In this document: in pieces, positions 10,885 through 31,944 of the stretch | Numbering within the stretch: the first letter of the stretch is position 1 | Layout of the letters: every line of letters starts with the position of its first letter | Origin: an uncultured Caryophanales bacterium | GTDB lineage: Bacteria > Bacillota_I > Bacilli_A > RFN20 > CAG-826 | Reading direction: 5' to 3' | Length of the DNA: 32,074 nucleotides | NCBI GenBank assembly: GCA_946612115.1 | Contig: CAMOEI010000001.1 | Coordinates: forward strand, 194,936-227,009 | Notes under the pieces: model-generated | The model's database searches: none | What the model was told of the DNA's origin: nothing | What the model saw: the letters and a program-made list of their open reading frames with translations, nothing else | Program-made: the position numbers and the translations under genes

Positions 10885-11340
10885 TTACACTCCTACCTTT
10901 GTTAAGATTTTATCTTGAAGTTCAAACATTACTTTTTCATCTTCTTCATTCATGTGGTCGAAACCGAGCAAGTGAAGAAGACCATGCGTAAATAAAAACT
11001 GTAATTCTCGATCTAAACTATGTCCATATTCCTCTGCTTGCTCTTTAGCTTTATCGACGGAGATATAAATATCTCCTAACGCCACCATCGACTTAGAATG
11101 TAAGAGTTTTTCTCTATTTGGGTCATTATCCAAAAAAGCAAAACTAATCACATCTGTTGGACGGTCAATATTACGATATTTCTTGTTGATCTTGTGAATG
11201 TATTTATTGTCAACAAAACTCGCAGAGACAATCGGTTCAAATTCATACTGTAAGGTCTTTAAAGCAACCTCCATGATTTTGAGGTATTTCCTTTCATATT
11301 CTTCAAAACCCTCATATTTAGAATCGAAATCTAGTTCCAT
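10885..11340 (-). CDS. ybeY: Endoribonuclease YbeY (rRNA maturation factor)
   Basis: Zinc-dependent single-strand endoribonuclease needed for 16S rRNA 3'-end processing and ribosome quality control. The 151-residue protein begins MELDFDSKY, a typical YbeY opening. It has the conserved INKKYRNIDRPTDVISFAF segment and the metal motif HGLLHLLGFDH (three histidines in H-x3-H-x5-H spacing). The start at 11340 has no clear Shine-Dalgarno sequence. The next in-frame ATG (MEVALK) would remove the conserved N-terminal strand, so I keep the long form. It follows the C39 membrane-protein gene by 28 bases that contain a 7-base inverted repeat. Confidence 0.95.
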   Translation of the reverse strand: MELDFDSKYEGFEEYERKYLKIMEVALKTLQYEFEPIVSASFVDNKYIHKINKKYRNIDRPTDVISFAFLDNDPNREKLLHSKSMVALGDIYISVDKAKEQAEEYGHSLDRELQFLFTHGLLHLLGFDHMNEEDEKVMFELQDKILTKVGV

Positions 11341-11368: not shown

Positions 11369-12616
11369 TCATTCTATTGATTTGTGATTCTCATCGATGA
11401 TAAATTCATCGATTGAGTTCACTAATTTCGACTTATGATAATCGTATTCCTCCATTTCTTTTGAATAGGAGAAAAGTTTAGTGAAGTTGCCCTTTAGCAA
11501 AGTTGCGATACATGCAAAGAAAATTACATAAGTAATATCGACAAGTCCTTTTAGACTCATGGTGAGTAAACTCACCAATAAGACAACTCCAATTTCAACA
11601 TAAGTTAAGGCATTTCTACCTAGTGCAAGATTATAGGCGAGTTCATGAGCCTCATCTGTCTTGCATTTGAATTGAAAATCATTCTTTACGTCATTAATTT
11701 CATTTTCAATCTGCACTATTTTTGTGTTTGCTTCTTCAAAATATGGTGAATAGAAGAATGCTTCAACAAAGGCGAACAAAAGCGGAATCAAAATATAGAT
11801 TAAGTTTCTAAGCTCGTTAGTAAGCAAAATCATAATCATAAATACCGAGACGAGTGTGTAGTAGATAAAATTTGGGAGTATAGATAAAGACACTCGTCGA
11901 TATTTCTCAATGTTTTCATATATTTCTCTATAAGAGAATTTAATAGTTAGGAACTTTCTAGAATAAATAATTGTATCCATTCGTTTCATCGCTTTCACTA
12001 ACGCTGCTCGATAGATGATTTCAAAAATCAAAAATCCAGCTAATAAACCGATAGGAATATATAGCGGATAAGACTCAGTTAAGAAATAAGTACCCGCTAA
12101 TAAAGACACTCCACTAAGAGTTTGTAAAATTGGCAAAACAACCTTATCTTTTTTGGCAATATAATCAGGAAAAGTGATTGGACATTTTGTTTTAACAAAA
12201 TTTTCCACCAAAATCACATTTCCGCTCCACATTTTCACAAACGTCTCAATCGGTTCTTTTTTGTGCCCGAGCGCAGGATCAAAATAATATACTTTGTTAT
12301 GCGCGACTTTCTTAATAATGACGCTATGGAGTTGACCTTTCTTAACTTTGATGTTTGTTAATAACGGCCAACATTTCTTGTTTTTGACAACCTCATGAAA
12401 ATTGTCTGGTTTGACCCCTATCGCTTCTACATTGTAAGATCGCGCTATTTCAACAATGTCTTTAAAACTGTAGCACTTTGTTTGATCACCGGGCAAATAA
12501 AGATACTTGCGGTCTTTGTGTAGATGTGCGAGAAGGATTTTTAAGCAGGTGAACGCACAGTCAGATTCACCTAATTGGGATATAAAATACATATGCCTCC
12601 ATTCTGAGAGAAACAT
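11369..12616 (-). CDS. C39-peptidase membrane protein resembling a peptide exporter without ATPase
   Basis: 415 residues, unnamed. Residues 9-125 form a C39 cysteine-peptidase domain of the kind that cleaves double-glycine leaders in peptidase-containing ABC exporters: oxyanion Gln14 and Cys20 in QLGESDCAFTCLKILL, His97 in GQLHSVII, and Asp113 in YYFDPALG. The full catalytic set is present. About six hydrophobic segments follow (roughly 155-175, 182-202, 240-262, 267-285, 325-344 and 348-367), as in an ABC-exporter membrane half, but the protein stops where the nucleotide-binding domain should begin; there is no Walker A or ABC signature here or in the neighbours. I chose the ATG at 12616 because GAGAGGA lies 5 bases upstream. 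An ATG at 12592, with GGAGG only 3 bases away, is possible, and an upstream TTG-type extension into dnaJ is not. Terminators and spacing suggest its own transcript. Substrate unknown. Confidence 0.78.
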   Translation of the reverse strand: MFLSEWRHMYFISQLGESDCAFTCLKILLAHLHKDRKYLYLPGDQTKCYSFKDIVEIARSYNVEAIGVKPDNFHEVVKNKKCWPLLTNIKVKKGQLHSVIIKKVAHNKVYYFDPALGHKKEPIETFVKMWSGNVILVENFVKTKCPITFPDYIAKKDKVVLPILQTLSGVSLLAGTYFLTESYPLYIPIGLLAGFLIFEIIYRAALVKAMKRMDTIIYSRKFLTIKFSYREIYENIEKYRRVSLSILPNFIYYTLVSVFMIMILLTNELRNLIYILIPLLFAFVEAFFYSPYFEEANTKIVQIENEINDVKNDFQFKCKTDEAHELAYNLALGRNALTYVEIGVVLLVSLLTMSLKGLVDITYVIFFACIATLLKGNFTKLFSYSKEMEEYDYHKSKLVNSIDEFIIDENHKSIE

Positions 12617-12621
12617 AAAAG

Positions 12622-12628
12622 TCCTCTC
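12622..12628 (-). promoter_or_regulatory. Ribosome site deciding the C39 gene start
   Basis: GAGAGGA sits 5 bases before the ATG at 12616. The alternative ATG at 12592 has GGAGG only 3 bases away, which is close for efficient initiation. Confidence 0.5.
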
Positions 12629-12638
12629 ATATATATAT

Positions 12639-12657
12639 GGAAATACATAGTATTTCC
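12639..12657. promoter_or_regulatory. Perfect 8-base inverted repeat upstream of the C39 gene
   Basis: GGAAATAC, a 3-base spacer and GTATTTCC form a perfect inverted repeat about 23 bases upstream of the chosen start. The centre contains TACTAT on the minus strand, a weak -10 candidate without a convincing -35. It could be an operator over the promoter or a 5' UTR hairpin. Confidence 0.35.
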
Positions 12658-12705: not shown

Positions 12706-12733
12706 GAAAAAAGAAAAAGACCCAAAGGGTCTT
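12706..12733 (-). terminator. Intrinsic terminator after dnaJ
   Basis: On the minus strand AAGACCC, loop TTT and GGGTCTT (12717-12733) are followed at once by TTTCTTTTTT. The hairpin begins inside the dnaJ stop codon. It ends the hrcA-grpE-dnaK-dnaJ transcript and separates it from the C39 gene. The purine-rich opposite side makes it partly bidirectional. Confidence 0.85.
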
Positions 12734-13865
12734 ATTTTTTGAAGAATTTTTTGAACTTCTCAAACGGTGAATCGCCGGCTTTCGTATTTGCGCGGTATTG
12801 TTCGAGAGCTTCTTTTTGCTTTTTGGACAAGCTAGTCGGACTCTTGATTAGTAAGTGGACATATTGATCTCCTGGCTTACCAGTTCTTAAATCTTTAATA
12901 CCTTGTCCCTTCATTCTAAGGATTTGTCCTGGTTGAGTTCCTTCTGGGATGGTGAGAATCATCTCTCCATAGACAGTTGGCACTTCAATTTTGGTTCCAA
13001 GAATTGCATCGACAAAGTCGATTGGGACTTCAAGATGGATATCGTTTTTATCTCTTTGGAAGAATTGATGTGGCTTGACACTGATTTCAACATATAAGTC
13101 TCCATGTCCTCCACCGTTTTGTCCAGCTCCTCCATAACCTTGGAGTCTAATTTGTTGACCGCTGGCAATTCCAACTGGAATATGAATCTTCGTGGTCTTC
13201 TTTACGCGGTGAGTGCCGCTTCCTCCACAGGCAGAACATTTCTTTGAAATGATTTTGCCTTTTCCTCCACATGTTGGACAGACGACTTCGGTATCGACAA
13301 CTCCGAATAAGCTTCTTTGTTGTCTGGTAACTGAGCCTCTTCCTCCACAGGCGGTACAAGTTGAAATGTCGCTAGGAGATTCCGCACCGGTTCCGTGACA
13401 ATGTGGACATTCTTCATCAAAATCAAATGATATTTCTTGATCCTTTCCGTTGACGACATCCATGAAATCAACACGTAATTTCATTAAGACATCATCGCCT
13501 CTAATTGGACCAGTTCTTCTTCTGGTGGATCTAGCTCCTCCTCCAAAGAATTGTGAGAAGATATCTCCTAAATTGATGTCTTCTCCACCGAATCCTCCTC
13601 CAAAGCCGCTGAATGGATTACCTCCAGCTGGGCCTCCTCCGGTTTGTTCAAATGCAGCATGACCAAATTGGTCATAAGCGCTACGCTTTTGATCATCGTA
13701 GAGAATATCATAGGCTTCTTGAACTTCTTTAAATTTAGCTTCATCCCCAGTTTCTTTATTATCTGGGTGATATTTCTTAGCCAATTTACGGTAAGCAGAT
13801 TTTATTTCATCTTTTGATGCACTTTTATTAACACCAAGGACTTCATAGTAATCTCTTTTGGCCAT
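12732..13865 (-). CDS. dnaJ: Chaperone DnaJ (Hsp40)
   Basis: Co-chaperone that delivers unfolded clients to DnaK and stimulates its ATPase. The 377-residue protein is a full type I DnaJ: J domain (1-70, with KKYHPDNK containing HPD), Gly/Phe-rich linker (about 74-110), and a zinc domain with four CxxCxGxG repeats (CPHCHGTG, CTACGGRG, CPTCGGKG, CSACGGSG). C-terminal client-binding domains follow (about 210-345). The ribosome site AAGGA is 6 bases before the ATG. It is the last gene of the heat-shock operon; a strong mRNA hairpin precedes it and a terminator follows immediately. Confidence 0.97.
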   Translation of the reverse strand: MAKRDYYEVLGVNKSASKDEIKSAYRKLAKKYHPDNKETGDEAKFKEVQEAYDILYDDQKRSAYDQFGHAAFEQTGGGPAGGNPFSGFGGGFGGEDINLGDIFSQFFGGGARSTRRRTGPIRGDDVLMKLRVDFMDVVNGKDQEISFDFDEECPHCHGTGAESPSDISTCTACGGRGSVTRQQRSLFGVVDTEVVCPTCGGKGKIISKKCSACGGSGTHRVKKTTKIHIPVGIASGQQIRLQGYGGAGQNGGGHGDLYVEISVKPHQFFQRDKNDIHLEVPIDFVDAILGTKIEVPTVYGEMILTIPEGTQPGQILRMKGQGIKDLRTGKPGDQYVHLLIKSPTSLSKKQKEALEQYRANTKAGDSPFEKFKKFFKK

Positions 13866-29413: not shown

Positions 29414-31414
29414 CTAAATGACGATCGTTCCTTCCAAATCCGTTCTTCTTATCTTCACATCATATTTTTTCAAAGTCGAAAGAGTCGCTTTATGGGGGTG
29501 CCCAAATTTATTGTTTTTCCCACACGAGATAATCCCGATATCTGGATCAACCATCTTAATGAAGTCTTGCCCGCTTGATGTATTAGAGCCGTGATGCCCT
29601 ACTTTTAAAACATCAAATTTGAATTTTTTATGATCTTTAATGATTTGTGATTCAATCTTTTTTGGAGCGTCTCCCGTTATTAAATAACTTTTGTTATTTA
29701 AATTAAAACCAATCACTAACGATTCATCATTTTCTTCTTTCCAAAGTTCTGGATAGACATTGTAATTTGTTAGTGTTATCCCATCTATTAAAAGTGGAAA
29801 CTCTCTATAGTCCTTTGCATACCTTTTCACTTTAAAATTGTTAACAAGGGAACTAACCGCTCCTGAATGGTCAAAATCATCGTGAGTGGTAATTAGTAAA
29901 TCAATGTCATAAATCCTATTCTTTTTAAAAAACGGAATTAATACATCGCTGGCGATATCTTTATATACACTCCCTCCTGTATCAATTAAAATAGTCGTGT
30001 TATTTTTTCTAATTAATGTTGCGTCTCCTTGACCTACATTGATAAAACTAACGCTACTGGTGAAAACGTTTTTAATCGGAATAAAATATAATCCGAAAGT
30101 AACAACGAAAGGAATCAGAGTCATTTTAATCATCGGCTTATGTCTAATAGATAAATAATATAGGCAGGTAAAATAAGCTAACTCATAGATCAAAACTCCC
30201 CAACTTGGTAAATTTGGAGCGTATATCTTAAATAAGAATGGCCTTACACCTTTTAATATAAAAAGTAAAAAGCCGCTAAACCCATTTATCGCAGAATATA
30301 ATGGAATTCCTACTAGCGATAAAATAGACAATAAGAAATATATCCCAAATAATGGGGTTAGTAGAATTTGTAGAACAATCGATAATATTGATATCTCAGA
30401 ATAATATTTTAAGTAAAAAGGAATAAAGAGTAACGAAACCGCTATTAAGAGAACTATTCTTCTTTTTATTTTCCATTTCTTTGGCATACTTCCATTAAGG
30501 AAGTAAGTAAGTAATGGAATCGAAAATGATAAAAAATAACTATCTTGATACGCATAGTGATAATCAATAAGCAAAAAGAATAGACCAGTCAATGATAATA
30601 AAGTTAAATAATCGAGCTTTTTCTTAAAAATATGATCGTTAAAATACTTAAATAAATGATAAAAGAAAAACTTCAAAGTAATAAATCTAGGGAACGATAA
30701 AAATCCATATGGCACGAATAGTAATAGGCTAATTATGTCCCTATATTTTTCCTTTTTGATATATATAGATAATAGGCGAGAGATTAAGAAATATATTAGT
30801 GACAAATATAATCCACTACTTGAGATTAGTCTCATGAAGTGAAGGTCGCTAGCGAGATCTTTTAATTCGCCATCTTCATTTTTAGAAAAGAGCATCCCGG
30901 CGAGAAGAGATCGACTATTCTCGTCAAGTTTTAAAAGAAAATTCTGTTTGAATTTGTTAATTTTTAACGGATTAGAAAACTTAACCTTCAAACTTTCAAT
31001 ATGAAGTTCGCTATAAACTCCTTTATTATTTAAATACTCCTTGAAATCAAAATCTGATTCAAGTCTCACGAAATCAAGATCGGTTTTATAACCTTTAATC
31101 TCTAAGATATCCCCAATTTCGTGGGGATGCTCTTTTTCATATACATAAAATTTTTCTAGGCTACTAGAGGCGATAAAATAATTATCTTTGACTTCCACCA
31201 CTAGGGATCGATAAGTTGACTTGTTAAAACTAGGTCTAATAAATGAAACGCCAACACCAATTAAAACAAAAGCCAGACTTACTAGTGCGAATTTCTTGCT
31301 AATTCGAATGAAAACAAAGATTAATACAATTAAGGCTTCAATGACGCCTACAATTATCGAATATCTTAAATTCAGTCCTATTAATAATGAAATTAAGATA
31401 AAGAGAAAACTCAC
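29414..31414 (-). CDS. comEC: Competence protein ComEC (DNA uptake channel)
   Basis: Membrane protein thought to form the channel through which single-stranded DNA enters the cell during transformation. The 666-residue protein has two or three N-terminal membrane helices, a soluble OB-like domain (about 60-150), and a competence domain with many hydrophobic helices (about 185-450). Its C-terminal metallo-beta-lactamase domain has VGQGDATLI, TTHDDFDHSGAV, LITGDAPKKIE and VLKVGHHGSNTSSG, which hold the metal ligands, so the nuclease-like domain looks intact. It is shorter than the B. subtilis protein but has all the usual parts. Its start overlaps the comEA stop as ATGA, so the two are coupled. 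Confidence 0.95.
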   Translation of the reverse strand: MSFLFILISLLIGLNLRYSIIVGVIEALIVLIFVFIRISKKFALVSLAFVLIGVGVSFIRPSFNKSTYRSLVVEVKDNYFIASSSLEKFYVYEKEHPHEIGDILEIKGYKTDLDFVRLESDFDFKEYLNNKGVYSELHIESLKVKFSNPLKINKFKQNFLLKLDENSRSLLAGMLFSKNEDGELKDLASDLHFMRLISSSGLYLSLIYFLISRLLSIYIKKEKYRDIISLLLFVPYGFLSFPRFITLKFFFYHLFKYFNDHIFKKKLDYLTLLSLTGLFFLLIDYHYAYQDSYFLSFSIPLLTYFLNGSMPKKWKIKRRIVLLIAVSLLFIPFYLKYYSEISILSIVLQILLTPLFGIYFLLSILSLVGIPLYSAINGFSGFLLFILKGVRPFLFKIYAPNLPSWGVLIYELAYFTCLYYLSIRHKPMIKMTLIPFVVTFGLYFIPIKNVFTSSVSFINVGQGDATLIRKNNTTILIDTGGSVYKDIASDVLIPFFKKNRIYDIDLLITTHDDFDHSGAVSSLVNNFKVKRYAKDYREFPLLIDGITLTNYNVYPELWKEENDESLVIGFNLNNKSYLITGDAPKKIESQIIKDHKKFKFDVLKVGHHGSNTSSGQDFIKMVDPDIGIISCGKNNKFGHPHKATLSTLKKYDVKIRRTDLEGTIVI

Positions 31415-31944
31415 GCGTGTAAAATTACGTAATTTCGAATTTTTCGATATGTTGCATTACCAATTCCATAAACTTCTAATAGTTGCTCAAGAGTTGAGAA
31501 TTGACCATTTTCAGTTCGATAGGTAACAATCGAATTTGCCACTGTGCTATTAATACCGTTAATCGTTGCAAGTGTTTCAGCATCGTCAGTATTAACGTTA
31601 GCTTTGCTAACTTCACTAGTATTGCACACATCATTTGTGTCATATCTAGAAGCGATATAATAAGTCATGCCTTTGGTGAGTTCAGCAGTTTCATAATACG
31701 CTCTAGCATCTGCATTATTTGTTACTCCGCCAGCAGTGTCGATTAAATCTCCTAGCGTCGCGTTATCTTGCAGTGTATATGTGCCAGAATTATACACTTC
31801 ACCTTCAATTGTCACAGTAAATGTCTCGGCTACTTCTGTTACGGCTCCAGAAGTTGAGGTGATGCCAATGTTTGGGTCGAGGATAAGAAAAGTGCCAATT
31901 ACTGCAATAGCAACAATTACGACCCCAATAATAATTTTGACCAT
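31411..31944 (-). CDS. comEA: Competence protein ComEA (DNA receptor)
   Basis: Membrane-anchored receptor that binds double-stranded DNA outside the cell and passes it to ComEC. The 177-residue protein has an N-terminal signal-anchor helix (about 4-22), an SLBB-type domain (about 43-100, VTIEGEVYNSGTYTL, then LGDLIDTAGG) and a C-terminal helix-hairpin-helix pair (about 115-177: VNTDDAETLATINGI, ANSIVTYRTENGQFSTLEQL, VYGIGNATYRKI) that contacts DNA. AGGAGG is 5 bases before the ATG. The leader contains a hairpin and an alternative pairing. The presence of comEA and comEC suggests a transformation machinery, but no pilus or regulator genes are seen here. Confidence 0.95.
   Translation of the reverse strand: MVKIIIGVVIVAIAVIGTFLILDPNIGITSTSGAVTEVAETFTVTIEGEVYNSGTYTLQDNATLGDLIDTAGGVTNNADARAYYETAELTKGMTYYIASRYDTNDVCNTSEVSKANVNTDDAETLATINGINSTVANSIVTYRTENGQFSTLEQLLEVYGIGNATYRKIRNYVILHA

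Follow-up and report, generated by a model that had tools for sequence, protein, structure and literature searches.

An ABC-exporter-like protein that retains its C39 peptidase domain and lacks an ATPase is encoded by a core gene that is near-universal in the order of the uncultured Caryophanales bacterium analysed here. We consider it probable, at roughly 0.62, that the gene product is a leader peptidase anchored in the membrane, which arose from a PCAT-type exporter of the Mbov_0121/JCVI-syn3A 0401 kind by loss of the ATPase domain.

The reading frame of this gene, as given in the initial annotation, is open in the window, by which we mean the whole 32,074-nucleotide stretch of DNA that was analysed. 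Its strand had to be corrected to minus, and its start is likely to lie further in. The second in-frame ATG, Met9, has GGAGG immediately upstream, and in near relatives AGGAG(G/A) is found upstream of the methionine aligned with Met9. Because of this arrangement, the Met9 codon is probably the true start and the protein probably comprises about 407 residues. The features of the locus are collected in Table 1.

Table 1 Features of the C39 gene and its surroundings, in window coordinates
Feature	Position	Strand	Remarks
ybeY	10885..11340	-	next gene downstream, 28 bp gap
C39 peptidase-membrane gene	11369..12616	-	415 aa from first ATG; probable start 12592, giving 407 aa
Six-helix ABC-exporter-type membrane domain, residues 155-401, without ATPase domain	11414..12154	-	model, fold search, shortened cytosolic loops
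Peptidase C39 domain, residues 9-140	12197..12592	-	Pfam PF03412, E=5.2e-14; peptidase domains of LahT, ComA and PCAT1 matched by the model
Catalytic Asp113 codon	12278..12280	-	55/57 homologues
Catalytic His97 codon	12326..12328	-	57/57 homologues
Catalytic Cys20 codon	12557..12559	-	56/56 homologues covering the position
Gln14 codon, oxyanion-hole position of C39 peptidases	12575..12577	-	52/57 homologues; 3 others gapped
Ribosome-binding site GGAGG ahead of Met9	12596..12600	-	sequence; near relatives arranged likewise
Small leader hairpin	12605..12629	-	between dnaJ terminator and GGAGG; several relatives have comparable hairpins with other sequences (weak)
Intrinsic terminator at dnaJ end	12717..12733	-	overlaps dnaJ end
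dnaJ	12732..13865	-	upstream gene

We refer to the window's own GTDB family as f1 and to other families of the same order as f2–f8. In draft MAGs, on which all presence and absence counts rest, a single-sequence search of f1 gave homologues for 190 of 224 genomes and 33 of 35 genera. A 37-sequence profile detected homologues across the whole order in 257 of 279 genomes, which represent 50 of 56 genera, although some of the weakest of these matches, mainly in f5–f8, may be other C39 proteins; by family, the profile counts were 211/224 (f1), 21/23 (f2) and 16/18 (f3). When contigs were searched, the single-sequence query gave no match and the alignment query was successful. Full-length homologues span ~380–450 aa and all lack the ATPase domain. 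Plasmid and phage collections yielded partial matches only, at <30 % identity, the listed plasmid ones being annotated as peptidase-domain ABC transporters; these results and the fixed synteny described below rule out a mobile or accessory gene.

In the window the gene heads a ybeY-cdd-era-recO block. At the 38 f1 loci with the gene, ybeY, cdd, era, recO and glyQS belong to the same block, and in most of them ybeY follows it directly. At the f2 and f3 loci the downstream order is identical, and dnaB-dnaI (named from sequence reading) lie upstream in place of dnaJ. Of the placement between dnaJ and ybeY that the initial annotation proposed to look for in related genomes, the ybeY side is almost always retained, and the dnaJ side is not retained in f2 and f3. 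The distance from the C39 gene to ybeY has a median of 33 bp and is within ~125 bp in 46 of 53 measured loci, the others having an insert. Inserts of 0.8–1.8 kb occur at loci L053, L064, L073, L074 and L219, and the one at L219 is a 585-aa aminopeptidase-P-like gene. This fixed position beside ybeY argues that the C39 gene is an ancestral, vertically inherited member of the block, and its near-universal occurrence in that position marks it as core rather than accessory, contrary to the accessory function first suggested.

The same neighbourhood bears on how the gene was thought to be regulated. The terminator originally assigned to it belongs to dnaJ, whose end it overlaps, and with ybeY following closely on the same strand the suggested independent regulation was not borne out either. 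A perfect 8-bp inverted repeat (GGAAATAC-3-GTATTTCC, 12639-12657) lies upstream of the C39 gene; no equivalent was found among the relatives scanned, for which the first few repeats per locus were considered. A leader RNA that sequesters the ribosome-binding site was considered and rejected: individual folds were good, but pairing of the site was overall not above that in shuffles, and RNAalifold gave no consensus. An Rfam search of the window returned no matches. Elsewhere in the window, comEC-like and comEA-like genes occupy 29414-31944 on the minus strand.

The peptidase predicted at the outset was recovered by profile search. Residues 10–138 match Pfam Peptidase_C39 with 52.7 bits against a cut-off of 22, and the same family was matched by all 37 members of the homologue set. 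The Gln, Cys, His and Asp that make up the active site of peptidase family C39 are complete in the window protein, at the very positions first claimed for them. Conservation of these residues, counted in 57 homologues once reading frames with a start annotated too far downstream had been extended (Table 1), indicates that the peptidase is under strong constraint.

An AlphaFold model built from a 25-sequence alignment (pLDDT 85.5, pTM 0.79) begins with a C39 fold and continues with six long helices (residues 155-180, 186-218, 246-267, 269-309, 313-356 and 361-382), in keeping with the roughly six membrane segments, arranged as in peptidase-containing ABC exporters, that had been read from the sequence. 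The top PDB matches in Foldseek were PCAT1 structures (E=2e-13). Alignment to PCAT1 with VIA-align, the best obtained, gave a Z of 20.8 over 390 residues and covered only PCAT1 8-466, which is everything ahead of the ATPase domain; structure prediction thus returned the ABC-exporter membrane fold that the initial annotation had expected. A sequence profile search also found PCAT1 (2.7e-19), with a match that reached into the membrane domain. The Pfam ABC_membrane cut-off was passed by f4 relatives but by no other members. Mean identity to the window protein is 37 % in the membrane domain versus 39 % in the peptidase, and since the membrane domain is conserved about as well as the peptidase, it may do more than anchor the protein.

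That the protein ends before a nucleotide-binding domain (NBD), as first noted, is confirmed by its neighbours and its relatives. An NBD concealed downstream is impossible because ybeY starts 28 bp after the stop codon, and a frameshift or sequencing error is ruled out by the intact, ~400-aa, NBD-less homologues in >200 genomes. The cytosolic loops that dock the NBD have changed as well. ICL1 and ICL2 measure 39 and 54 aa in the intact PCAT and 39 and 46-53 aa in the ATPase-less f4 forms, whereas in the aligned f1–f3 homologues they measure 24-31 and 30-40 aa, apart from one f1 outlier with an ICL1 of 18; the f1–f3 loops are thus shorter than those of the intact PCAT by ~8-15 and 14-24 residues.

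This shortening of both loops disfavours the suggestion that the protein works with an ABC ATPase encoded elsewhere and supplied in trans, and so continues to export peptides. The bacterium's own genome holds 38 ATPase-domain matches from which such a partner could be drawn, and the f4 homologues have full-length coupling loops. However, the ~58 neighbourhoods inspected contain only four NBD genes. All of these are at f3 or f4 loci, lie far away or on the other strand, and can be assigned to other transporter types from the genes around them. We regard a split transporter as improbable, though it fares best among the alternatives. The statement that no ABC ATPase or double-glycine precursor gene is adjacent stands: beside the window gene there is no exporter-type ABC ATPase, and the neighbourhood scan revealed no convincing GG-leader precursor gene next to the C39 gene. 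In addition to the motorless protein, the same genome has an ordinary C39 system, a RiPP cluster (L077:4098-10543; C7:54.1-60.5 kb). Its GG-leader peptide (..LNAISGG/ACTP..) is encoded at L077:4098-4292, and the cluster further comprises genes for a radical-SAM maturase-like protein and a membrane-fusion-like protein, together with two exporters, one an NHLM-type PCAT that has its ATPase and the other a second ABC exporter.

Of the NCBIfam families, NF045998, the Mbov_0121 peptidase domain-containing ABC transporter of mycoplasma, is matched by the largest number of members (33 of 37). The ATPase-less f4 members align with it from residue 6 to residue 426 of 432 (E=1.2e-35), and hence through both the C39 and the membrane domains; the window protein scores 33.6 bits and the best f4 relative 123 bits, both under the 500-bit cut-off. 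Judged from these similarities, the parent of the ATPase-less form is likely the Mbov_0121/syn3A 0401 transporter family. In JCVI-syn3A, we take 0402 to be ybeY and 0404 to be recO. Locus 0401 of that genome encodes a C39 transporter for which there is no candidate GG peptide, and 0405 encodes glycyl-tRNA synthetase (PMC6609329); 0403 is Era (PMC6389857). Because 0403 is Era and 0405 is GlyRS, the three loci fit the order C39-ybeY-(cdd)-era-recO-glyS, if cdd is absent, and the locus numbers in these papers fit a position of 0401 equivalent to that of the window gene, before era and glyS. We infer that 0401 is itself a member of NF045998. Proteins that are canonical C39 exporters bar the ATPase, with near full-length coupling loops, are encoded in the f4 genomes G265, G266 and G268 (L217, L218 and L219). 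The loop lengths plausibly form a series from the intact PCAT through f4 to f1–f3, which may also be the order of events, and the f4 proteins could possibly be an evolutionary intermediate.

That the protease is conserved while the motor and the loops for docking it have been lost suggests a peptidase without powered export, and processing without transport, one of the two options raised by the initial annotation, is the reading best supported. In such a protein, the C39 domain would lie on the cytosolic side and would cut the leader of at least one precursor, the cut probably falling behind a Gly-Gly-like site. The membrane domain, which is probably dimeric like that of the parent, would position the substrate without pumping it, and the cleaved product would leave by another route or stay in the membrane. 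Proteolysis rather than transport would then be the activity preserved. The survival of a motorless protease throughout the order allows a broader proposal, which we advance tentatively and at somewhat less than even odds: the protein would be an order-wide housekeeping membrane protease and former exporter, and the ancestral activity in Mollicutes, that of 0401 included, would be proteolysis of a conserved cellular precursor and not export.

Other substrates and chemistries were weighed against a leader peptidase derived from a PCAT. Tad-like pilus operons found without an A24 peptidase made the C39 protein a candidate for a replacement prepilin peptidase. A conserved operon of this kind (L110:6467-11284, in the bacterium's own genome at C7:32.5-37.3 kb, and L122-L141), often followed by an acyl-carrier-protein gene, encodes in most f1 genomes an ATPase, TadB-/TadC-like proteins, small TadE-like proteins and a 48-61 aa pilin, MSEIKGQLLG... 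A Tad-type ATPase is present in ~193 of 224 f1 genomes and an A24 peptidase in 10 of 224, nine of these ten also having a second, long PilB-type ATPase; A24 (PF01478) had no match in the window protein and none in its genome at E<=10. The pilin start (MSEIKG/QLLG..) resembles a prepilin, but its leader contains only one Gly and lacks a GG-type leader helix, and no gene linkage joins the C39 gene to the Tad-like operon. In the f1 genus g28, 5/5 genomes have the C39 protein and 0/5 have Tad. Across f2 and f3, 37 of 41 genomes retain the C39 protein, and a strong Tad ATPase match occurs in 0 of 41. The prepilin role is therefore largely rejected, and we rate it as quite unlikely.

The C39 fold is common to other cysteine hydrolases and transferases, so conservation of Cys, His and Asp is no proof of peptide cleavage. 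The protein might then be a C39-fold enzyme of other acyl chemistry at the membrane, for instance the lipoyl-lysine transamidation tentatively proposed for 0401 by the syn3A authors (PMC6609329), and the mycoplasma relatives indeed lack candidate GG peptides. That activity was proposed solely to close a metabolic gap, however, and nothing found in the window bears on lipoyl transamidation; we give it as little credence as the prepilin role. A relic, that is a transporter gene in decay after loss of its ATPase, would account for the missing domain and the shortened loops, but the gene is intact in >200 species and its catalytic residues are all but invariant, so that a pseudogene is ruled out by its active site and decay is hardly credible.

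As a leader peptidase of exporter descent, the protein would be a transporter without its engine whose protease has been kept order-wide, and it would separate two activities that PCATs normally keep together. Should it be the orthologue of minimal-cell 0401, the peptidase half of that protein, with its catalytic Cys and its precursor, should be probed before peptide transport. The family was initially thought possibly undescribed; the ATPase-less form was found in none of the open-licence papers covered, which is weak evidence of novelty for NBD-less C39 proteins, but the likely parent family already has a name in NCBIfam.

Among known systems, FapD and FilB are stand-alone C39 peptidases that, like the window protein, are unfused to an ATPase. 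Their profile similarity is weak (31.1 versus a cut-off of 330 bits for FapD, 15.9 versus 475 bits for FilB) and limited to the C39 domain, whereas the window protein fuses that domain to a six-helix exporter domain. PCAT1 and the AMS-PCAT exporters, as well as ComA, LahT and NHLM ABC1, share the C39 fold and its catalytic set, and the exporter membrane fold is shared over PCAT1 8-466; the window protein differs from them in having neither an NBD nor an adjacent GG-leader precursor. The Mbov_0121 family resembles it most broadly, through the alignment of f4 members over both domains and a syn3A position relative to era and glyS that published locus numbers suggest to be equivalent, but proteins of the window type are set apart from that family by the absent ATPase domain, by coupling loops that are shortened in f1–f3 and by scores far under the family cut-off.
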